A DNA stretch of 64,000 nucleotides from Alkalispirochaeta alkalica DSM 8900. GTDB taxonomy: Bacteria; Spirochaetota; Spirochaetia; DSM-27196; Alkalispirochaetaceae. Location of the stretch: NCBI RefSeq assembly GCF_000373545.1, contig NZ_KB891701.1:1-64000 (forward strand), read 5' to 3'. Positions 1 through 49,134 of this stretch are shown here, in pieces; within the stretch, counting starts at the first letter, position 1; the number at the start of each line of letters is the position of its first letter. Below the pieces are notes generated by a model that saw only the letters and a program-made list of their open reading frames with translations, was not told the DNA's origin and ran no database searches. A program made the position numbers and the translations under genes.

Positions 1-541
1 TCGCCAGGTGGCGGGCCGCCTCGGCCAAGCCGATATCGCGGTGATAGTGTTTCTGGATATAGAGGAGCGCCTCGTGAACCAGGGGGTGCATCGGGGGTGT
101 CTCGGGAGACGGTATCGGGGAGGGGGGCGGAGCTGATTCTTTCTGTCCCGGCGGGGGTTCTGACCCTCCGAAACCTCCCGAGAGGGCCCGGATCGAGGCT
201 CGTTGCAGGGAGCGACGCAACTCTTCGTCGTCCAGAGGTTTCAGGAGAAAATCTGCCGCTCCCGCCCGCAGGGCCCGCTGGGCAAAATCGATCTGGCCGT
301 GGCCGGTGATGATGATCGCCGCCCGGGGTGTGGTTTCCTCCACCAGGGTGATGCCATCGCCATCGGGAAGCTTGATATCGGTTACGAGAATATCGGGACG
401 AACCCGGGCGATCACCTGGCGCGCCTCGGCTGCCGTAGTAGCCGTGGCCGCCACGGTGCAGTTTACGCTTCTCCAGGAGAACGTTTCCGTCAGCTCCCGC
501 AGCAGGGGAAGCTCATCCTCGACGATCACTACACGAAGCAT
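1..541 (-). CDS. YesN-like response regulator, receiver plus AraC-type DNA-binding domain (partial)
   Basis: This is a cytoplasmic transcription regulator, the partner of the kinase just upstream. The protein opens with the receiver signature VVIVEDE, the predicted phosphorylated Asp is D55 in LVTDIKLPDGDG, and the conserved Lys lies in FLLKPLD. After a Pro/Ser-rich linker comes YIQKHYHRDIGLAEAARHL, the start of an AraC-family helix-turn-helix; the rest lies beyond the left edge. The ATG overlaps the kinase stop in TGATG, so the two are translationally coupled. YesN-type regulators usually control nearby carbohydrate uptake genes, but the target is not visible here. The family call is firm; the function is inferred. 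Confidence 0.9.
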   Translation of the reverse strand, partial: MLRVVIVEDELPLLRELTETFSWRSVNCTVAATATTAAEARQVIARVRPDILVTDIKLPDGDGITLVEETTPRAAIIITGHGQIDFAQRALRAGAADFLLKPLDDEELRRSLQRASIRALSGGFGGSEPPPGQKESAPPPSPIPSPETPPMHPLVHEALLYIQKHYHRDIGLAEAARHLA

Positions 542-7660: not shown

Positions 7661-8959
7661 ATGAGCATGCGAAGAATGGTTCGAAAAGCAGGAGTGATCC
7701 TGGTGGCTGCCACGGTACTCTGCGCCACGGGAGGTACCCTTTTTGCGGGAGGATCGGGGGAGCGCCGCCCGGCTCAGGAGGAAATCACCTTCACCAGCTG
7801 GCGTACCGAGGATATCCAGCGGATGCAGCGGATCAACCGGGTCTTTATGGAGGAGAATCCCGATATTCGGGTGATTTTCTCCCCCGTGAGCGATCAGGAA
7901 TACGATGCACAGATGCAGGCTGCCATCGGCGCGGGGGTCGGGGCCGAGATCGTCTTCGTTCGTTCCTACGATCCCGGCCGGGTTCTCTACGATTCGGATC
8001 TCCTGGAACCCCTGAACCAGCTTCTGCCCCAGCTGGAATCCTTTCCGCCCGCAGCAATCGACGCCTGGGGGACCGAGGAGGGGACGATCTACGCGATTCC
8101 CTTTGTGGGAGTCACCCACGGGGTCTATTACAACAAGGGAATATTTCGCAAGCACAACCTCTCGGTACCCCGGACCTGGGACGAGTTTATCCAGGTGAGC
8201 AGAACCCTCAAGGAGCAGGGTGAGACGGTCTTTGCCCAGGGAACGCAGGAGGGCTGGCCCCTTTACGAGGTGATCTACTCGGGCCTGGGAGCGAACTTTT
8301 ACGGTGGTGAGGCGGCCCGACAAAAGCTCCTGAAGGGCGAGATGCGGCTCACGGATCGTCCCTTTGTGCGGGCCTTCGAGAAAGCCCTGGAACTGGAAGA
8401 GTTTTTCCCCCGGGACCACTCGGCGATCGACTACGTGAGCATGCAGCAGATGTTCGGAACCGGCAACGCCGCCATGTTCATCGGGGGCTCCTGGGAAATC
8501 GGCATCTTTGAGGACCTGGGACTCGGTGATGACCTGGGATGGTTTCCTCCTCCCGTGGAGCGCGTGGGCGATCGCTTGCAGTACTGCTTCCACGTCGACG
8601 CCGGCATCGGCCTCTCCCGGGGAAACAGTGGCAACGCGGCGGCCCTGAGCTATCTGGAGTGGGCATCGACGCCGGAGTTCGCCCAGCTGTTCATGAACGA
8701 GCTTCCCGGATTCTTTGCCTACACGCCGGGGAACTACGACCTGAACCACCCTGTGGCGTCCAAGATGATCGATGCCGCCCAGGACGCCGACCTCACGGTC
8801 CGTACCGTATGGCAGCATCTCTCGGCTCAGGTTCCCAGCGGGAACGAGCTCATGGAAGAAGCCCTGATTCTGATGTACAACAAGGCGATCTCTCCCCAGG
8901 AGGCGGCCGCCAAGGTTCAGAACGGTCTCAACAGCTGGTATCCGGCCTTCCGGAACTAA
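7661..8959 (+). CDS. Carbohydrate ABC transporter solute-binding protein (family 1)
   Basis: 432 residues. The ATG (MSMRRMVRKAG) has an AGGAG ribosome site seven bases before it. The signal peptide VILVAATVLCATGGTLFAGGSGE shows the 'FAGGxxE' end common in spirochaete binding proteins, without a lipobox Cys. The mature protein has features of the MalE/UgpB class: EITFTSWRTEDIQRMQRINRVF, then PRTWDEFIQVSRTLKEQG, and GNAAMFIGGSWEIGIF. It begins an operon with two permeases, behind a sigma54 promoter and probably under the adjacent NtrBC-like system. The substrate cannot be read from sequence; sugar or sugar derivative is the family norm. Confidence 0.9.
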   Translation: MSMRRMVRKAGVILVAATVLCATGGTLFAGGSGERRPAQEEITFTSWRTEDIQRMQRINRVFMEENPDIRVIFSPVSDQEYDAQMQAAIGAGVGAEIVFVRSYDPGRVLYDSDLLEPLNQLLPQLESFPPAAIDAWGTEEGTIYAIPFVGVTHGVYYNKGIFRKHNLSVPRTWDEFIQVSRTLKEQGETVFAQGTQEGWPLYEVIYSGLGANFYGGEAARQKLLKGEMRLTDRPFVRAFEKALELEEFFPRDHSAIDYVSMQQMFGTGNAAMFIGGSWEIGIFEDLGLGDDLGWFPPPVERVGDRLQYCFHVDAGIGLSRGNSGNAAALSYLEWASTPEFAQLFMNELPGFFAYTPGNYDLNHPVASKMIDAAQDADLTVRTVWQHLSAQVPSGNELMEEALILMYNKAISPQEAAAKVQNGLNSWYPAFRN

Positions 8960-9011
8960 GGAAAGTCTGCACCCTGACGCACTCCTGAAACAGGAGATGA
9001 CCAGAGGATTC

Positions 9012-13361: not shown

Positions 13362-13389
13362 AAGAAATCGTTTGCGCAAACGATTTCTT
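13362..13389. promoter_or_regulatory. 28-bp perfect palindrome, LacI-family operator
   Basis: AAGAAATCGTTTGC followed directly by its exact reverse complement. The core TTTGCGCAAA has the central CG step typical of LacI-family operators (RbsR, PurR, CcpA). It overlaps the transcription start of the operon and lies 31 bases before the repressor ATG. Confidence 0.88.
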
Positions 13390-23178: not shown

Positions 23179-24459
23179 ATGAATCCCCAGTGGAAAAAAG
23201 AGACCCGAGCAATCCAGGGCGGCTACCGGCCCGGCAACGCCGAGCCCCGGGTCACCCCCATCTATCAGAGCACCACCTACAAGTACGACACCGCCGAGGC
23301 TGTGGCCCATCTCTTCGATCACCCCGAGGAAGGCCATATCTACTCCCGTATCAGCAACCCCACCACGGAGGTGCTCCAGAAAAAACTGGCCGACCTGGAG
23401 GGGGGAATCGCCGCGGTGACCACCTCGTCGGGCCAGGCTGCAACGACCCTGGCAATCCTCAACCTCTGTCAGGCGGGGGATCATATCGTCGCCTCCAGTT
23501 CTCTCTACGGAGGGACCTATAACCTCTTCAATTACACCCTCCCCCGGATGGGAATCGAGGTAACCTTTGTAGACCAGGACCAGAGCGCCGCCGAGATCGA
23601 AGCAGCCTTCAGGCCCCGCACGAAGGCGATCTTCGGTGAGTCCATCAGCAACCCCGCCATGGAGGTTCTGGATTTCGAGAAGTTCAGCCAGGTTGCCCGC
23701 TCCCGGGGGGTCCCTTTTCTGGTGGATAACACCTTTCCCACACCCTTCCTCTGTCAGCCCCTGAAACTGGGTGCCCACATCGTGATTCACTCCACCACCA
23801 AGTATATCGACGGTCACGCCACCAGCGTGGGCGGGGCCGTCATCGACGGGGGAACCTTTCCCTGGGACAACGGGAACTTCCCCGCCTTCACCGAACCGGA
23901 CCCCAGCTATCACGGCGTTTGCTACCACGAACGTTTCGCCAGCGCCGCCTACGCCGTGAAACTGAGTTATCAGCTCATCCGTGACCTGGGGACACCCCTG
24001 TCGCCCATGAACGCCTTTCTCACCAATCTGGGGCTGGAGACGCTCCATCTCCGCATGGAGCGGCACAGCCAGAACGCCCTGGCTCTGGCGCAATATCTCC
24101 AGGACCACCCTCGCGTCTCCTGGGTCCGCTACCCCGGCCTCCCGGGAAGCCCCTCGGCAGAACGGGCCCGGCGGTATCTCCCCAAAGGATCCAGCGGCGT
24201 GCTCACCTTCGGCATCACGGGGGGGCAGCCCGCAGGAGAAGCCCTGATGAACTCCCTGGAGCTGGCGTCGATCGTGGTCCATGTGGCCGACGTACGAACC
24301 TGCGTTCTCCACCCTGCCAGCATGACCCATCGCCAGCTCTGCCAGGAGGAACAGCAGGCCGCCGGGGTCTCGCCGGACCTGATCCGTGTCTCCCTGGGGC
24401 TCGAGCACATCGATGACATCATCGCCGATTTCGACCAGGCCTTCCGGCGCCTTCCCTGA
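23179..24459 (+). CDS. metY: O-acetylhomoserine sulfhydrylase (PLP-dependent Cys/Met enzyme)
   Basis: 426 residues. It should make homocysteine (or methionine with methanethiol) from O-acetylhomoserine in the cytoplasm. Family features: TRAIQGGYRPGNAEPRVTPIYQSTTY at the N-terminus, SSLYGGTYNLFNYTLPRMGIEV, the PLP-binding Lys in IHSTTKYIDGHATSVGG, and the end LIRVSLGLEHIDDIIADFDQAF. AAGGAGG precedes the ATG by nine bases. Its 5' and 3' ends recur in a decayed copy 1.26 kb downstream. MetB/MetZ-type activity cannot be excluded, but the long DNGNFPAFTEPDPSYHG segment fits MetY. Confidence 0.92.
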   Translation: MNPQWKKETRAIQGGYRPGNAEPRVTPIYQSTTYKYDTAEAVAHLFDHPEEGHIYSRISNPTTEVLQKKLADLEGGIAAVTTSSGQAATTLAILNLCQAGDHIVASSSLYGGTYNLFNYTLPRMGIEVTFVDQDQSAAEIEAAFRPRTKAIFGESISNPAMEVLDFEKFSQVARSRGVPFLVDNTFPTPFLCQPLKLGAHIVIHSTTKYIDGHATSVGGAVIDGGTFPWDNGNFPAFTEPDPSYHGVCYHERFASAAYAVKLSYQLIRDLGTPLSPMNAFLTNLGLETLHLRMERHSQNALALAQYLQDHPRVSWVRYPGLPGSPSAERARRYLPKGSSGVLTFGITGGQPAGEALMNSLELASIVVHVADVRTCVLHPASMTHRQLCQEEQQAAGVSPDLIRVSLGLEHIDDIIADFDQAFRRLP

Positions 24460-24506
24460 CCACTCCTGACGATTCATCGCCTCCCCGGGCGCTCTCGCGG
24501 GCGCCC
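24331..24506 (+). repeat. Direct repeat, 3' end of metY and terminator (copy 1)
   Basis: The last 43 codons of metY plus its downstream stem-loop. The same sequence recurs at 25590-25765 with scattered substitutions, so the two copies flank a 1.1 kb segment with the toxin-antitoxin genes. Confidence 0.85.
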
Positions 24507-24509
24507 GGG
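24484..24509 (+). terminator. Stem-loop after metY
   Basis: CCCGGGCGC-n8-GCGCCCGGG with no clear T-run. It lies 24 bases past the metY stop. In the repeated copy downstream the stem is damaged. Confidence 0.6.
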
Positions 24510-24558
24510 CTGCGCAAAACATCCATGTGGACCCGTCGGGTCGTCGCAATCCTGCAGG

Positions 24559-24879
24559 TTAGCCGTCCTTTTCTACGATTCCTGTGTTTACAAGTTTCTT
24601 CATCAACTCGTAGATGTCTTTCTTGTCACCGGATTTTCGGATTCCAACCGCAACTACGATCACCACAACCTGGGTATCTTCAACCCGGTAGACGATCCGA
24701 TATCGTTGACCAGCCGCACGGACCGTCCTGAATCCTTTTAACGGCCCCAACAGCGGCTTGCCCATTAGAGCCGGCTCCTCCTTCAGCTGTTCAATCTTCC
24801 TGATGATCTGAGTTCTGGCGGTGGCCTCGACGCTCTTGATCATCTGAGTCGCCAACTCGGTCAGCTTGATTTTATACAT
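24559..24879 (-). CDS. RelE/ParE-family toxin
   Basis: 106 residues. Features of the RelE/ParE fold are MYKIKLTELATQMIKS, QIIRKIEQLKEEPALMGKPLLGPLKGFRTVRAAGQRYRIVYRVED, and VVVIVVAVGIRKSGDKKDIYELMKKL. The 'LKG.R..R.G.YRIVY' core is the usual RelE core. It probably cleaves mRNA at the ribosome, but ParE-type gyrase poisons share the fold. The ATG lies inside the end of the antitoxin gene (eight-base overlap), the normal antitoxin-first order. The sequence is less GC-rich than its surroundings, which suggests transfer. A 13-base palindrome at 24530-24542 follows the stop. Confidence 0.85.
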   Translation of the reverse strand: MYKIKLTELATQMIKSVEATARTQIIRKIEQLKEEPALMGKPLLGPLKGFRTVRAAGQRYRIVYRVEDTQVVVIVVAVGIRKSGDKKDIYELMKKLVNTGIVEKDG

Positions 24880-25138
24880 CAAAGCCTTTCTTGAACTCCT
24901 CGAAATCGATCAGCTTCCCCTGCCGGGCCTGGGAGATTCCGATCTTCAAATCGTTGTAGCCTTCCGGGTCGGAAAGAATATCCAGAGTTTCTGCGATGCT
25001 TTCGTAGGTGTCCCACCGTAGAATAGCCAGGACTTCCTTCCCGTGATTGGTTACAGAGATCGTATCTTCATACGACATATCGGTTTCCAACGATGTTATT
25101 TTTCTTCGTGTCTCGGATATCGACATTTGCTTAATCAC
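24872..25138 (-). CDS. Phd/YefM-type antitoxin
   Basis: 88 residues from a GTG with an AGGAG site six bases before it; an in-frame ATG four codons later (MSISETRRKI) is the alternative. The N-terminal half (SISETRRKITSLETDMSYEDTISVTNHGKEVLAILRWDTYESIAETLDIL) has the Phd/YefM pattern. In these pairs that half binds the promoter and the C-terminal tail neutralises the toxin. It is coupled to the RelE-like toxin and is expected to repress its own promoter. Confidence 0.85.
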   Translation of the reverse strand: MIKQMSISETRRKITSLETDMSYEDTISVTNHGKEVLAILRWDTYESIAETLDILSDPEGYNDLKIGISQARQGKLIDFEEFKKGFDV

Positions 25139-25490
25139 TGGTTTCTCCTCGTACGAAGCCTGCTCTATTTTGTACAATAATGCAATGGCATGATGTACAT
25201 TTTGCGCTTCTCCGCTTCGCCCGCGACGTGTGTCTTTCGCTCGAGATAACCGGCGAGTTGGGTAATAGTCACCGCATAACGGATTCACGTGGTGTTGGGG
25301 CCCGCACTATTTGTTTATGAATCTGGGGATATAACCAAAATACTGTAGTTGAGACTTGAAAGAAAGGGGAACGGAAACCGGGCTCAGGGGAATTCCTGAT
25401 TGCCTTTTGGGTGCTCAATCATTACACAGAAGACGGAGAACAGCCCCAAAATCGCGCGTTACCGACTTGGGAGTGGATTTGAGGAGCACA
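25139..25490. other. Low-GC segment upstream of the toxin-antitoxin pair
   Basis: About 350 bases with no gene I can support. The minus strand before the antitoxin must hold its promoter: TACAAAATAGAGC lies near 25170-25182, but I see no clean -35/-10 pair. The stretch near 25255-25310 contains GTTGGGT and GCATAACG, which loosely resemble integron attC ends, but no full site. Base composition is visibly lower in GC than the flanking genes, consistent with insertion. Confidence 0.5.
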
Positions 25491-25718
25491 GGAAAAAGAG
25501 ACCCGAGCAATCCAGGGTGGCTACCGGCCCGGCAAGGCCGAGCACCGGGCTATCCCCATCTATCAGAACACCACCGAAAAGCAGGACCCCGCCAGCTCTG
25601 CCAGGAGGAACAGCAGACCGCCGGGGTCTCGCCGGACCTGATCCGTGTCTCCCTGGGGCTCGAGCACATCGACGACATTATCGCCGATTTCGACCAGCCC
25701 TTCCGGCGCCTTCCCTGA
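25491..25718 (+). pseudogene. Decayed metY copy with a large internal deletion
   Basis: Bases 25491-25591 match the 5' end of metY from codon 5 on, with one A lost from the A-run (an early frameshift) and no start codon. The sequence then jumps directly to the metY 3' end. About 1,039 bases are missing between two copies of CGCC, a short-homology deletion. The final part still reads LCQEEQQTAGVSPDLIRVSLGL and ends with the metY stop. It cannot make an enzyme. Confidence 0.88.
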
Positions 25719-25765
25719 CCACCCCTGGCGGTTCATCGCCTTCCCGGGCACTCTCGCGGGCGCCC
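25590..25765 (+). repeat. Direct repeat, 3' end of metY and terminator (copy 2)
   Basis: Second copy of the repeat at 24331-24506. Substitutions spoil the terminator stem: GGGCGC has become GGGCAC. It ends next to the converging chemoreceptor gene. Confidence 0.85.
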
Positions 25766-44068: not shown

Positions 44069-45736
44069 ATGCCCATGAGCAATCACAAGACAATTCTTCT
44101 CATCGAAGACGAGGTGATCATCGCCATGACCGAGGCGATGACCCTGGAAAAGTACGGCTTTCGCGTTGTCCTGGCCCATTCAGGTCAGAAGGCCCTGGAG
44201 ATCGTCGAAAAGAACGCCGATATCGATCTGATCCTCATGGACATTGACCTGGGGGGGGCTATCGACGGAACCGAAGTGGCTCGATCGATTCTGGAAAATC
44301 GGATGATTCCCCTGGTTTTTCTCTCCTCCCACACCGAGCAGGCCGTGGTGGAGAAGACCGAGGGAATTACCTCCTACGGGTATATCGTAAAAAACTCCGG
44401 CGAAACCGTCCTGATCGCCTCCATCAAGATGGCTTTTCGCCTCTTCGAGGCCCAGCAGAATATCATCTCCCAGAACGCCCGAATCGAGGCAGCAAACAGG
44501 CAGCTCCAGGTAACAAATCAACAGCTGCTCCGCTCGCGTGACCAGCTTCGCCAGGGCGAAACGGCGCTTCACGAGAGCCAGGAGCGGTTACGCCTCTTCT
44601 CGGAACAGGCCCAGGACATGATCTACCGCTTCGAATTCGTCCCGGTCCGTCGCTTTTCCTACGTGAGCCCCTCGGCGACCCGTATCACCGGGTATACCCC
44701 GGAAGAACTCTACCAAGACCCCGAGATCGGGTACCGCATGATCCACCCCGATGACAGCCATCTTCTGCCGGACCTCCTGAAGGATCGCCGTTCCCGGAAG
44801 GACCCCCTGGTTCTGCGGTGGAAAAAAAAGGATGGATCCCTGATTTGGGCCGAGCACATGAGCTCCCCCGTCTACGACGAGACGGGGACCCTCGTGGCCT
44901 TCGAGGGAATGGCTCGGGATGTCACGGGTCGTCAAAGAGCCCGGAACGCCTACGAAGAGCTCTCGGCGGTGCTGGACCGAATTATTGAGGGATCTTCGGC
45001 GGGGTGTTTCTTTATGCGCTGCGATCCCCCCTTTACCTGGAAGGCCACAGAAGATCGGGAGATTCTTATCGATCGCGCCTTCGCCACCCAGAAGATCGTG
45101 CGGGTCAATCAGGCCTTCGCCGGGCAGTACGGTCAGAATCCTGACGAACTTCTGGGAAGAGGACCGGCGCAACTCTTTGAAACCAATCCGGAAAAAGGGA
45201 AGAGCCTCTGGAAACAGCTTCTGGAACGGGGAAAGCTCCACATTCGAACCGAAGAGCTCCGCTCCGACGGTTCCCGTTTCTCAACTCTGGGAGACTACCT
45301 CTGTCTCTACGACTCTCAAGGAAGAATCGACCAGATCTTCGGGCTTCGCTACGACGTTACGACCCCAGAAACCCGGGATGAGTTTCTCCAATCCCGCACG
45401 GATCACCTCTGCGATGCTCTTCTCGAAACGGATCTTCAGGGACGGTGCCGCTATGTTTCTCCCAGCCACGAGCGGCTTTTGGGACGCGGTAAGGAGATCC
45501 TCGGCGATTCCTGCTTCGAATTTGTCCATCCCCAGGACCGGGAACGCGCGATGGAAACCTTCCAGGAAGCGGCCCGAACGGGACGGGAGGGCCGCGCCGT
45601 GTATCGCTATCTCCACCCCGAACGGGGATATATCTGGCTCGATTCGGTGGGCCAGGTCTATACCAACCCCGAGGGAGAATCGGTGGGATTAATCGCCATC
45701 AGGGAAGCATCACACCCTTTTACCCCTTCCCCGTAG
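44069..45736 (+). CDS. Receiver-PAS-PAS-PAS protein without output domain
   Basis: 555 residues, soluble. The receiver (KTILLIEDEVIIAMTEAMTLEKYGF) has its phosphorylated Asp in DLILMDIDLGGAIDG and the Lys in SYGYIVKNSGET. A short coiled coil (ARIEAANRQLQVTNQQLLRSRDQL) leads into three PAS/PAC units: RFSYVSPSATRITGYTPEELYQD, IVRVNQAFAGQYGQNPDELLGR and CRYVSPSHERLLGRGKEILGD. The protein ends after the third, with no kinase, GGDEF, EAL or DNA-binding part. It probably acts by protein contact downstream of the preceding kinase. Its 3' end overlaps the converging rep gene by 79 bases. Confidence 0.88.
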   Translation: MPMSNHKTILLIEDEVIIAMTEAMTLEKYGFRVVLAHSGQKALEIVEKNADIDLILMDIDLGGAIDGTEVARSILENRMIPLVFLSSHTEQAVVEKTEGITSYGYIVKNSGETVLIASIKMAFRLFEAQQNIISQNARIEAANRQLQVTNQQLLRSRDQLRQGETALHESQERLRLFSEQAQDMIYRFEFVPVRRFSYVSPSATRITGYTPEELYQDPEIGYRMIHPDDSHLLPDLLKDRRSRKDPLVLRWKKKDGSLIWAEHMSSPVYDETGTLVAFEGMARDVTGRQRARNAYEELSAVLDRIIEGSSAGCFFMRCDPPFTWKATEDREILIDRAFATQKIVRVNQAFAGQYGQNPDELLGRGPAQLFETNPEKGKSLWKQLLERGKLHIRTEELRSDGSRFSTLGDYLCLYDSQGRIDQIFGLRYDVTTPETRDEFLQSRTDHLCDALLETDLQGRCRYVSPSHERLLGRGKEILGDSCFEFVHPQDRERAMETFQEAARTGREGRAVYRYLHPERGYIWLDSVGQVYTNPEGESVGLIAIREASHPFTPSP

Positions 45737-47190
45737 GAGCCTCCTTCCGCCACGCTGCACCAGAGCTCAAAATCGGGGAGCTCCAGCGCCTCGTCGAGCA
45801 GCCTCTCCCGTTCGGCGATCCGCAAGGCTCCCACCATCCATTCCCGATCTGTCCCAGCCTGCTCCCTCACCCGCCGCTCGATCCGCTGGTCGAAGGCTTC
45901 CCGCTCTTCCCGGGAAAGGCCCTCGAGAAAAGACCGTCGAGCCTGATCCCGGAAGGATCCGTAGGCATCCTGTAAATCCCTCTCCTTCTGTTTCTGCCGG
46001 GACTTCTTCCGCTCCTCCTCCTGGCTTTTCTCCTTTTCCTGATCTTTCAGGAATTCATCATCCTGCCAGTCCTCACGAACCGACTGATAGAGATACCGGC
46101 TCGGCCCCTTCACCTTCTCTGGTCGCTCCCGAAGTAAAAATTCCAGCTGATCCAGCTTCTCCCGTATCATTTTTTCCGGATAGGTCGCCAGAAGTTCCCG
46201 TATCTGCCCCTCCCCCAGACCGTGGCTCTTCATCCGCTGCGCGATTTTTTGCGGTGCCACACCCTTTTTCCCCCGAGGTTTTTCCGGTTGCACCAGGGGA
46301 AATTTCTCCACCGTCTCGGGCGTTACCTCCCGCCAATTGATCGATCTCATGAGATCCAGTTTGATGTACACATCCTGAACCCGTCGCTCGAAGGACCAGG
46401 CCTGGATGACTTCCTTGTCCCGCAGTTCCTGAAGCGCTGTGGCAAATTGCTTGCGTATGTTCTTTATTCCCCGTTGAGGGGAAATATGAAGATACTCCAC
46501 CAGGGTCTGGTAGGGTATTTCCGTGTGCATGCGCTGACGGTATTTTTGTGTCTTTTTGTCGAAGTAGAAGACTGTGTAATTCAAATAATCGAAGAGCCTC
46601 ACGGCGATCCCGCTCTTCAGTTGTGCCACAAGGCCCATGTTGACCACCCGGTAATAACGGTTCCGGAAGTTTTCCACGTGCCAGTCGTTCAGGGCGATCT
46701 CGACACGATTGGTCCTGCTGGTTTTTCCCGTCCGGACATCGGCCTGGATTCTGGTGATGCGATAGAGAAGATTAAACTCGCTTTTTACATCGTAACTTTT
46801 TCCGTCCCGTCGTATTTTAAGAATCGTCTTGATTTCCACCGAGCGAAGTTTCGAAAGACTCTCGTATATTTTTTGGGTGTTCGAGGAACTCATGTTCAGG
46901 ACATCGGCGATCTCCTTGAAGGTAGTCACCACAATATTCGATTCGAAGGTGGGATTTTGTTTCAGGTAGAGATATTCAATGGCAAGAAGCATTTTCCGGT
47001 CGTAGGCGGTAAGATTTCTCTCGTGGGTTACCTCGATTTGAAAGAGATCGTTGTGAAGGCTGTAGTCGTACCGGTCGGTCTGACGCTCTCCCGTTGTTTT
47101 GGAGGTGCTGAAGATGGGGAGTCGGAGAAAATTGATCTCCGTTGCAACGGAGCGTTCTATCTCCTCCTGGAGAGAATCCTGTTCTGCCAT
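45658..47190 (-). CDS. repA: Plasmid-type replication initiator protein
   Basis: 510 residues. The N-terminal 300 residues look like a winged-helix initiator of the RepA type: NFLRLPIFSTSKTTGERQTDRYDYSLHNDLFQIEVTHERNLTAYDRKMLLAIEYLYLKQN, TTFKEIADVLNMSSSNTQKIYESLSKLRSVEIKT (helix-turn-helix), and MGLVAQLKSGIAVRLFDYLNY. The C-terminal third is charged and probably coiled coil (KDQEKEKSQEEERKKSRQKQKE). It lies beside five iterons and divergent parA, the layout of a plasmid or chromid origin. The promoter puts the -10 box five bases before the ATG and no ribosome site is seen, so the message may be leaderless. The role is inferred from fold and setting. Confidence 0.85.
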   Translation of the reverse strand: MAEQDSLQEEIERSVATEINFLRLPIFSTSKTTGERQTDRYDYSLHNDLFQIEVTHERNLTAYDRKMLLAIEYLYLKQNPTFESNIVVTTFKEIADVLNMSSSNTQKIYESLSKLRSVEIKTILKIRRDGKSYDVKSEFNLLYRITRIQADVRTGKTSRTNRVEIALNDWHVENFRNRYYRVVNMGLVAQLKSGIAVRLFDYLNYTVFYFDKKTQKYRQRMHTEIPYQTLVEYLHISPQRGIKNIRKQFATALQELRDKEVIQAWSFERRVQDVYIKLDLMRSINWREVTPETVEKFPLVQPEKPRGKKGVAPQKIAQRMKSHGLGEGQIRELLATYPEKMIREKLDQLEFLLRERPEKVKGPSRYLYQSVREDWQDDEFLKDQEKEKSQEEERKKSRQKQKERDLQDAYGSFRDQARRSFLEGLSREEREAFDQRIERRVREQAGTDREWMVGALRIAERERLLDEALELPDFELWCSVAEGGSYGEGVKGCDASLMAINPTDSPSGLV

Positions 47191-47195
47191 GGCCA

Positions 47196-47225
47196 ACTAT
47201 AAAAACGATTGAAGCAGCATGTCAA
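47196..47225 (-). promoter_or_regulatory. repA promoter
   Basis: On the minus strand, TTGACA and TATAGT 18 bases apart, ending five bases before the repA ATG. It lies in an AT-rich stretch (47200-47300) with a perfect palindrome TATACTTAAGTATA at 47245-47258, a candidate melting region or operator. Confidence 0.75.
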
Positions 47226-47229
47226 ATAC

Positions 47230-47315
47230 TTCTTAATATTTCTTTATACTTAAGTATACTTAGAGACAAGGTAAATGACTATTTAAAAAGAGTTTACAAG
47301 AACGGAGGGGGGTGA
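47230..47315. other. AT-rich stretch, candidate origin unwinding region
   Basis: A run of A/T-rich sequence rare in this window, between the repA promoter and the iterons, including TATACTTAAGTATA and ATTTAAAAAG. In iteron plasmids the melting region lies next to the iterons. I see no good DnaA box. Confidence 0.5.
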
Positions 47316-47418
47316 AGGGTGTGAACGATGGGGGTAAAAAGTGTGACCGTGGGGGGGAAAGGGTGTGATCGCTGGGGGAGAAGGGTGTGATCGCTGGGGG
47401 GGAAATAGTGTGATCGCT
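47316..47418 (+). repeat. Five iterons, candidate replication origin
   Basis: GTGTGA recurs at 47319, 47341, 47363, 47385 and 47408, spacing 22, 22, 22 and 23 bases, i.e. two helical turns. The fuller unit is GGGTGTGATCGCTGGGGG; copies three and four are almost identical, and the outer ones vary (GAACGAT, GACCGT). Such arrays bind the plasmid initiator protein, here probably the divergent repA product. The last copy abuts the parA promoter. Confidence 0.85.
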
Positions 47419-47423
47419 CTGCC

Positions 47424-47452
47424 TTGCGTTGACCCGGGAAATGCCCTATCTT
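47424..47452 (+). promoter_or_regulatory. parA promoter
   Basis: TTGCGT and TATCTT with 17 bases between, directly next to the fifth iteron. Initiator binding to the iterons could therefore affect parA expression. Confidence 0.5.
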
Positions 47453-47504
47453 CAGTCCAGAGATCTCATAGCGCGTGGGCGTTCGGCAAGGAGAATAATC
47501 AGAT

Positions 47505-48284
47505 ATGCATGTTCTTTCGGTTGCTTCGGTAAAGGGTGGTGTAGGAAAAAGCGCAACAGCGATCAGTCTTGCCTATATGCTGGCAATGGATAAGAAGCGC
47601 AGAGTTCTTCTGATCGACACGGATCCACAAAACGCCACGACGAGCCACTTTTTTGCCGACCTGCAGTTTCACCACACCCTCAGTAGCGTTCTCCGTGAGG
47701 AGTGTTCCATCGAAGAGGCCGCGCGGCCAATCGAGGGAGTGTCGATCTCCCTCGTTCCCAGCGAGCTCGAGCTCGCTGATATAACCACCGCCATCGATGA
47801 GGGGCCGTCCCGGTGGTTTCTCCTCCACAACGCCCTGAAGGAGGTGGAGGAACACTACGATAATGTGGTGATCGATACGCCCCCGTCGCGGTTTTTTACA
47901 ACCCGTCTGAGCCTGATAGCCTCCCACGCCGTGGTGGTTCCCACCCAACTCGATAAATGGGCTGTGCGGGGGGTAAATACAACCTTCCGGGATATTCAAA
48001 GCGCGCTCCGCGACCAGCGGCTGGTGAACCGCCAGATCGAGGCGATCGCCGTGGTTCCCACCTTCTACGAAGAGAACCGTCAGATCAAGGATATTTTACT
48101 GCAGCAGGTGCGGGAGAACTTCAGTCGCTACACCACAAATACCCTTATTCATCGGGCAACGGAAATCGAAAAGACCTATTCGATCGACAACGAGCGACTC
48201 ACCCCGGGAAGCCGGGCTTACGCGGAATACGCCACCCTTCTCGATGAACTCATCGCCCGGGGAGTGATTAATGGCGAAGCATGA
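47505..48284 (+). CDS. parA: ParA-family partition ATPase
   Basis: 259 residues with AAGGAG about eleven bases before the ATG. The deviant Walker A motif is SVASVKGGVGKSATAISLAYMLA, Walker A' is RVLLIDTDPQNATTSHFF, and Walker B is NVVIDTPPSRFFTTRL. No N-terminal DNA-binding extension is present, as in small type Ib-like or chromosomal ParA proteins. It moves the replicon by ATP-driven nucleoid binding with a partner protein and centromere, probably the next gene and the palindrome behind it. Confidence 0.93.
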   Translation: MHVLSVASVKGGVGKSATAISLAYMLAMDKKRRVLLIDTDPQNATTSHFFADLQFHHTLSSVLREECSIEEAARPIEGVSISLVPSELELADITTAIDEGPSRWFLLHNALKEVEEHYDNVVIDTPPSRFFTTRLSLIASHAVVVPTQLDKWAVRGVNTTFRDIQSALRDQRLVNRQIEAIAVVPTFYEENRQIKDILLQQVRENFSRYTTNTLIHRATEIEKTYSIDNERLTPGSRAYAEYATLLDELIARGVINGEA

Positions 48285-49032
48285 CCTTTCAAAAATAAAG
48301 GTAAATGCCTCAGTGGTGGATCCCCTGGGGGGGAGCGAGGTTCGCCAGGAGGTCGACCCGGCGGCCGAGGCGCTGCGCCTTCGCTATTACGATCCCGTCA
48401 CGGCACAACCGATCAGCTTTGATCATTTGGAGCGACGAATACGAAAAAACGCCGACCGAATGAATCGTCTTTCCGTGGAGATGATGTTCGATCTCTACTT
48501 CGCCCACGCCAATTGGTCGGGATTTTACGATCGCACCGATTCTTTCAGCTCCTGGCTGGAGCGCACCGTCGATGTCTCCCGCAGTTACGCCTACGATATC
48601 ATCAAGGTTGTGAGAACCATGATTCACTACGTTCATCATCAAGCCTCGGGAGCTGACCCTCTTCCCATCGAAGAGATCGGCCGTCGAATCGAGGCGGTGG
48701 GGCTGAAGAAGATGAAGCTCATCAGCCAGGTCAAGGATCAGGGCCTCCAGTACACCTTTCTCTCCCGGGTTCTCTCGGGGGAATCCCTGGCCGATCAGGA
48801 TATTATCGAGCGCAATCGCGAGCTCCTGCAACGGGGTGCTCCTCGAGGTTCGGCGGGTGTTTCGGATGTACCGGTTCCGCGTGAAAGGGTCAGGGAGGTT
48901 ATCACCTCCCTGGAGGCGGCCCTGAAGAACCCCGCCGAACGGGAACGAGCCCTGGGGGCACGGGAGGTGGTAATCGCCCTCTTTGGGGGAACCGATCTGG
49001 AACAGGAGATCAGAAAAACTCTGGAAGATTGA
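48271..49032 (+). CDS. Putative ParA partner (centromere-binding protein), family not recognised
   Basis: 253 residues starting fourteen bases inside parA, which is the usual parB position. I do not see the ParB nuclease-fold motifs (GERR, or the arginine patch) or an obvious ParB helix-turn-helix. Visible features are a charged N-terminal stretch (MAKHDLSKIKVNASVVDPLGGSEV), a helical middle part (FSSWLERTVDVSRSYAYDIIKVVRTMIHYVHH) that could bind DNA, and a C-terminal helix ending ALGAREVVIALFGGTDLEQEIRKTLED. Position and coupling argue for a partition role. This is inference. Confidence 0.6.
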   Translation: MAKHDLSKIKVNASVVDPLGGSEVRQEVDPAAEALRLRYYDPVTAQPISFDHLERRIRKNADRMNRLSVEMMFDLYFAHANWSGFYDRTDSFSSWLERTVDVSRSYAYDIIKVVRTMIHYVHHQASGADPLPIEEIGRRIEAVGLKKMKLISQVKDQGLQYTFLSRVLSGESLADQDIIERNRELLQRGAPRGSAGVSDVPVPRERVREVITSLEAALKNPAERERALGAREVVIALFGGTDLEQEIRKTLED

Positions 49033-49081
49033 TGAGCTCTGCCGCTGGCAGGGCCCTCCTGGGGCGAACGGGGGGGTGCGG

Positions 49082-49108
49082 AAATGTGTCGTACCGTACG
49101 ACACATTT
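49082..49108. repeat. 27-bp perfect inverted repeat, candidate centromere (parS) or operator
   Basis: AAATGTGTCGTAC, one central C, then the exact reverse complement. It lies 50 bases past the parA-partner stop and 27 bases before the -10 box of the next gene. It could be the site bound by the partition partner, or an operator for the barrel gene that follows. Confidence 0.7.
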
Positions 49109-49134
49109 GAAGGTTTTCTGTGGCTGTAGGCGTC

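Follow-up and report, generated by a model that had tools for sequence, protein, structure and literature searches.

What lies in this stretch of spirochaete DNA? The window, that is, the whole 64,000-nucleotide stretch analysed, comprises bases 1–64000 of contig C11 (70,709 bp in total) of a draft genome of 71 contigs and 3.36 Mb. The features of interest are the following:

45658..47190, minus strand: repA, initiator of RPA/TrfA/Rep_3 type, 510 aa if translation starts at the ATG (47190), 512 aa if at the TTG (47196)
47196..47225, minus strand: sigma-70-like repA promoter, TTGACA-18-TATAGT, called by its 11/12 consensus match only
47231..47290, no strand: AT-rich candidate unwinding element, 70–85% AT per 20 bp
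47302..47416, plus strand: array of five iterons, predicted RepA-binding origin, core GTGTGANCG, spacing 22-22-22-23
47505..48284, plus strand: parA, Walker-type, 259 aa, no N-terminal DNA-binding domain
48271..49032, plus strand: parB-like partner gene, predicted centromere-binding protein, 253 aa, its homologues directly behind parA
49082..49108, no strand: perfect 27-bp palindrome AAATGTGTCGTACCGTACGACACATTT, candidate parS, with 13-bp arms, unique in the genome

A sequence-only reading had listed a RepA-like initiator, an AT-rich stretch, five iterons of 22–23 bp, a divergent parA and a coupled partner gene; all are present as it described them. The palindrome at 49082–49108 falls within the span it marked out, where it received no separate mention.

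The repA gene has two possible start codons, the TTG and, two codons further in, the ATG. The best promoter-like site places its −10 box about 6 bp before this ATG, which would leave the repA transcript with little or no leader. Between repA and parA lies what looks like the origin. Its AT-rich stretch contains a perfect palindrome, TATACTTAAGTATA, at 47245–47258, and beside it copies of the core begin at 47319, 47341, 47363, 47385 and 47408, in iterons of 22–23 bp. No tandem repeat in the window scores higher than this array; at a fixed period four copies could be chained, against two in each of eight 70-kb Markov shuffles. Direct repeats of about 17–23 bp beside an AT-rich region and an initiator gene are the marks of an iteron-type theta plasmid, and all of them are found here. 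The iterons are predicted to be RepA-binding sites; in plasmids of this type the initiator, by binding them, also controls copy number. A search of the origin region for DnaA boxes, with up to one mismatch allowed, found none.

To what family does RepA belong? In Pfam its sole match is PF07112 (DUF1368), a narrow pass at 27.2 bits against a cut-off of 25. NCBIfam, PHROGs and the solved structures returned no match, and the PF10134 model had none up to an E value of 10. A tblastn search of plasmids yielded a single weak relative (E 4e-5), the replication initiator protein A of Planctomyces pPL62-2, itself a PF10134 RPA protein; phages (tblastn), viral contigs and a scan of the genome-contig collection yielded none. 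Profile comparison was more informative. Residues 12–438 of RepA aligned by hhalign over 399 columns, at E 4.6e-17, with a profile built on six plasmid RPA proteins (Planctomycetota, Rubrobacter, Deinococcus, Thermus and Manganitrophus), whereas a control protein gave E 0.16. One of the six also matches TrfA and Rep_3. Judged by these alignments, RepA is a divergent initiator of the RPA/TrfA/Rep_3 superfamily; it is not a formal member of PF10134, because that model itself does not match it. A single-sequence structure model of residues 3–315 (mean pLDDT 39) was of too low confidence for a winged-helix call. Since RepA belongs to DUF1368 and aligns with the RPA proteins, that family may be one of plasmid replication initiators, which would give it a plausible function.

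The C-terminal part of RepA is common to the replication genes of other spirochaete plasmids (genomes G067 and G027). Their N-terminal domains differ from that of RepA, the one tested matching Phage_rep_O, and most have a divergent parA beside them. In G067, five paralogous repA genes occupy separate small contigs (C23, C202, C228, C411 and C385; L033–L037), on most of which the divergent parA is visible. This suggests many co-resident plasmids outside Borrelia.

The partition genes overlap by 14 bp. ParA matches phrog_164 (3e-44), and its structural relatives are the Soj/ParA and Borrelia PF-32 structures. As expected of a Walker-type partition system, the ATPase is accompanied by an operon partner and by a nearby candidate cis site, to which the partner is predicted to bind.

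What, then, is the partner? It matches no family in Pfam, NCBIfam or PHROGs, that of ParB/Spo0J (CTPase) included. Among 393 spirochaete genomes, full-length homologues were found, besides that in its own genome, only in G089 (three) and G037, and each directly follows a parA. One of the G089 copies sits between Rep_3 initiator genes. Viral contigs gave one match, a near-copy of the G037 locus. Neither the partner nor a G089 homologue matched any plasmid by tblastn, and a scan of the genome-contig collection with the partner alignment found no relatives. The confidence of a single-sequence structure model (mean pLDDT 55) was too low for an HTH call. Homology to the Borrelia PF50/PF01672 partner is not supported (hhalign probability 3%, E 0.013). 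PF01672 has zero matches in the genome studied here; it occurs in many copies in a family of the same class with genomes of 1–2 Mb, mostly multi-contig. Kinship with that family marks the host as a spirochaete. Three ParA partners of the other spirochaete plasmid type, two from G067 and one from G027, do resemble the Borrelia PF50 family.

The palindrome sits just 3′ of the partner gene. Does it travel with the partner? On contig C3 of G089, GAAATGTGTCGTATAATACGACACGTTTC immediately follows the homologous partner gene and is found again upstream of parA; contig C48 has two variants with TGTCGGAC half-sites, both upstream of parA. Two of the three homologous parAB cassettes of G089, a distant spirochaete, are thus accompanied by the palindrome, with even its half-site conserved. 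A search of 13 whole genomes (about 41 Mb) for the strict motif TGTCGKAYN{1,2}RTMCGACA gave four sites, each next to a parAB cassette with a partner of this family, and no match for the reversed control motif. This exclusivity is partly circular, because the pattern was drawn up once the relatives' sites were known. The motif is absent from the homologous cassettes on C41 of G089 and C24 of G037. G089 carries three different parA–partner cassettes (C3, C41 and C48; L029–L031), two with the TGTCG palindrome and one without, possibly representing three compatible plasmids with distinct centromeres.

Might the palindrome instead terminate transcription, or serve as an operator for the gene that follows? 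It does lie 12–42 bp upstream of that gene (start at 49120 or 49150), and some of the G089 copies stand upstream of parA, the place expected of an operator. But no T-run follows it, and the terminator scan did not report it. Moreover, what is conserved with a distant plasmid, again just after the partner gene, is the sequence and not symmetry alone, and the motif is found nowhere else in the genomes searched. We regard a terminator or operator in place of parS as unlikely. The two roles can in any case coexist, and an operator role in addition to parS is possible. The 27-bp palindrome is best read as the parS candidate of this partner family, a strong candidate on the evidence of its recurrence, though unproven.

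We also put forward, tentatively and at rather less than even odds, that the partner is the first representative of a new family of centromere-binding proteins, whose ParA is short and whose DNA site is a palindrome of its own, 17–27 bp long (TGTCGKAY-N-RTMCGACA). Such a family would be unrelated to ParB/Spo0J, to Borrelia PF50 and to ParZ. If it is real, then, taken with the PF50-like partners, it would mean that several HTH proteins of unrelated origin have been taken on as ParA partners among spirochaetes.

On what kind of molecule does this module reside? Four further features bear on the question or on the upkeep of the molecule:

1..541 in the window, continued at C11:70388–70614, minus strand: response-regulator gene (REC and AraC-type HTH) spanning the junction once the circle is closed
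8000..9000, no strand: GC-skew maximum, predicted replication terminus region
24559..24879, minus strand: ParE-family toxin gene (PF05016, 34.6 bits)
24872..25078, minus strand: small ORF (68 aa) overlapping the ParE-like gene, presumed antitoxin by position only, with no family match

The first 95 bases of C11 match its last 95 bases exactly, and no other pair with an exact terminal overlap was found among the 23 contig ends compared. Joined through this overlap, the contig becomes a circle of 70,614 bp. The response-regulator gene then reads uninterrupted across the join as a protein of 255 aa, in which both the receiver domain and the AraC-type HTH are found; a histidine kinase gene (541–2253) adjoins it. 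The circularity of C11 rests on the exact overlap together with the intact gene, and this is how a circular plasmid appears in a short-read assembly.

Replication polarity agrees. Cumulative GC skew reaches its raw minimum at 46429 (46.4 kb), less than 1 kb from the module and its iterons, and its detrended maximum at 8681; round the circle the two are separated by 32 kb in one direction and 39 kb in the opposite one. No skew amplitude as large as that of C11 arose in 2000 block permutations. In blocks of 1 kb, skew is negative in 35 of 38 on the left arm and positive in 28 of 33 on the right arm (p 7e-11). Gene orientation is not the cause, because the difference between the arms persists at third codon positions within genes of the same strand. 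The sequence-only reading would have been refuted by dnaA on the same contig with a single skew minimum elsewhere; but dnaA sits at 47.8 kb on C35, a different contig of 184.6 kb, and has a skew minimum of its own beside it at 45.9 kb. The cell therefore contains two or more molecules that replicate independently. A search for 16S rRNA genes found none in the whole 71-contig draft. Anatomy, closure and the location of dnaA together bear out the sequence-only reading in placing a plasmid-type origin and partition module on a secondary replicon. The replicon is not the large one it had envisaged, at only 70.6 kb.

The cargo is varied. There are several ABC sugar-uptake operons, one of ribose type with a ribokinase, as well as two-component systems, chemoreceptors, an RND efflux system and MFS and dicarboxylate transporters. 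No tRNA was found on the plasmid, and no core, relaxase or transfer gene among about 50 genes scanned. Neighbours that had been called chromosome-like thus prove to be accessory genes of sugar uptake, signalling and efflux. The one amino-acid enzyme is a Cys/Met PLP-family protein. Its gene has a decayed second copy within 23179–25765, where 25493–25593 corresponds to the 5′ end region (88%) and 25580–25765 to the 3′ end (94%). Between the intact and the decayed copies lies the ParE-like pair, a probable plasmid-addiction module. A perfect palindrome, AAGAAATCGTTTGCGCAAACGATTTCTT, at 13362–13389, immediately precedes a LacI-type regulator and the ribose operon and is likely an operator.

Could the module nevertheless belong to an integrated plasmid, or to a plasmid-derived origin in a larger chromosome or chromid, with C11 merely a fragment broken at a repeat? 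Many of its genes look chromosomal, and in GC content (60.3%) and tetranucleotide usage it agrees with the chromosomal contig as closely as the two halves of that contig agree. Chromosomal flanks with integration boundaries are what an integrated plasmid calls for, but the contig closes on itself: the overlap is exact and terminal, and closure restores a complete gene. The skew, moreover, fits a circle of 70.6 kb with origin and terminus about opposite, and the one genome of the same genus that was compared lacks both repA and the partner gene. Integration, one of the two explanations offered by the sequence-only reading, is accordingly very improbable.

The same chromosome-like composition, combined with a plasmid-type origin, is found in chromids, plasmid-type replicons that have become essential. 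Yet this molecule makes up only 2% of the assembly. Its Cys/Met PLP enzyme is duplicated at full length on contig C24, and the 20-kb stretch that holds the module (28.5–48.5 kb) has only one weak match, of 118 bp, in the same-genus genome. Because it has no tRNA that could be found, and neither core nor transfer genes among those scanned, we call the molecule a plasmid and not a chromid, and give the latter just as slight a chance as integration. Its composition, equal to that of the chromosome, indicates that the plasmid has probably long been resident in the lineage. We conclude, with considerable confidence, that the window represents 64 of the 70.6 kb of a free, circular spirochaete plasmid, presumably of low copy number, with a RepA/iteron origin and a partition system of ParA, partner and palindrome.

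How might such a plasmid be replicated and inherited? RepA would bind its five iterons in the repA–parA interval, melt the adjoining AT-rich stretch and load the host replisome. Theta replication would proceed in both directions and end about half a circle away, near 8–9 kb. ParA would form an ATP-dependent gradient on the nucleoid; the partner, predicted to be of HTH type and unlike ParB/Spo0J, would bind the 27-bp palindrome behind its own gene as parS and stimulate ParA, so that sister plasmids are moved apart. Plasmid loss would probably be penalised by the ParE-type toxin–antitoxin pair.

A draft contig has thus become a complete native replicon, its origin, partition genes and candidate parS lying within 3.5 kb. 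The sequence-only reading had called such replicons poorly described in free-living spirochaetes. For this spirochaete group literature searches did find few described plasmids; elsewhere among spirochaetes they are already on record, for example in Turneriella parva (PMC3746428) and Treponema succinifaciens (PMC3156407). Given the complete set of native elements and the few described plasmids in the group, the block at 45.6–49.2 kb offers itself as a candidate from which to build a shuttle vector. As a replicon the plasmid is of an ordinary kind; the part worth testing is the partner protein and its palindrome, which make up a small ParA system, with a partner other than ParB, that lends itself to direct tests.

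How does the module compare with known systems? In the RPA (PF10134) plasmids, such as pPL62-2 of Planctomyces sp. SH-PL62 and unnamed1 of Candidatus Manganitrophus, the initiator is homologous over most of its length and repA adjoins parA–parB; the Manganitrophus plasmid shares the divergent layout of repA and parA–parB. However, their initiators are only about 20–22% identical to RepA, which the PF10134 model does not match, and their ParBs are annotated as ParB/RepB/Spo0J, which the C11 partner is not. In Deinococcus radiodurans, repeats upstream of parAB on chromosome II and the megaplasmid are reported to serve as origin and parS and to bind DnaA and ParB (PMC7671480). Those secondary replicons likewise have iteron arrays upstream of parAB, whereas C11 has a separate palindrome as its parS candidate, a dedicated repA and no DnaA box that we could find.

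The Borrelia plasmid loci, with PF32 ParA and the PF50/PF01672 partner, are alike in ParA and in having a small, parA-linked, non-ParB partner, but the two partners have no detectable homology, and there is no PF01672 in the genome that carries C11. A PF50-like partner is found instead in the other spirochaete plasmid type (G067 and G027). That a spirochaete ParA can be controlled by a centromere-binding protein other than ParB is established for the ParA/ParZ system of the Borrelia chromosome (PMC9712426). ParZ differs in that it belongs to the chromosome and has its binding site within its own coding region. What appears to be new here, as far as sequence comparison can tell, is a sorting protein outside the described families, together with a matching candidate DNA site that is common to distant spirochaete relatives.
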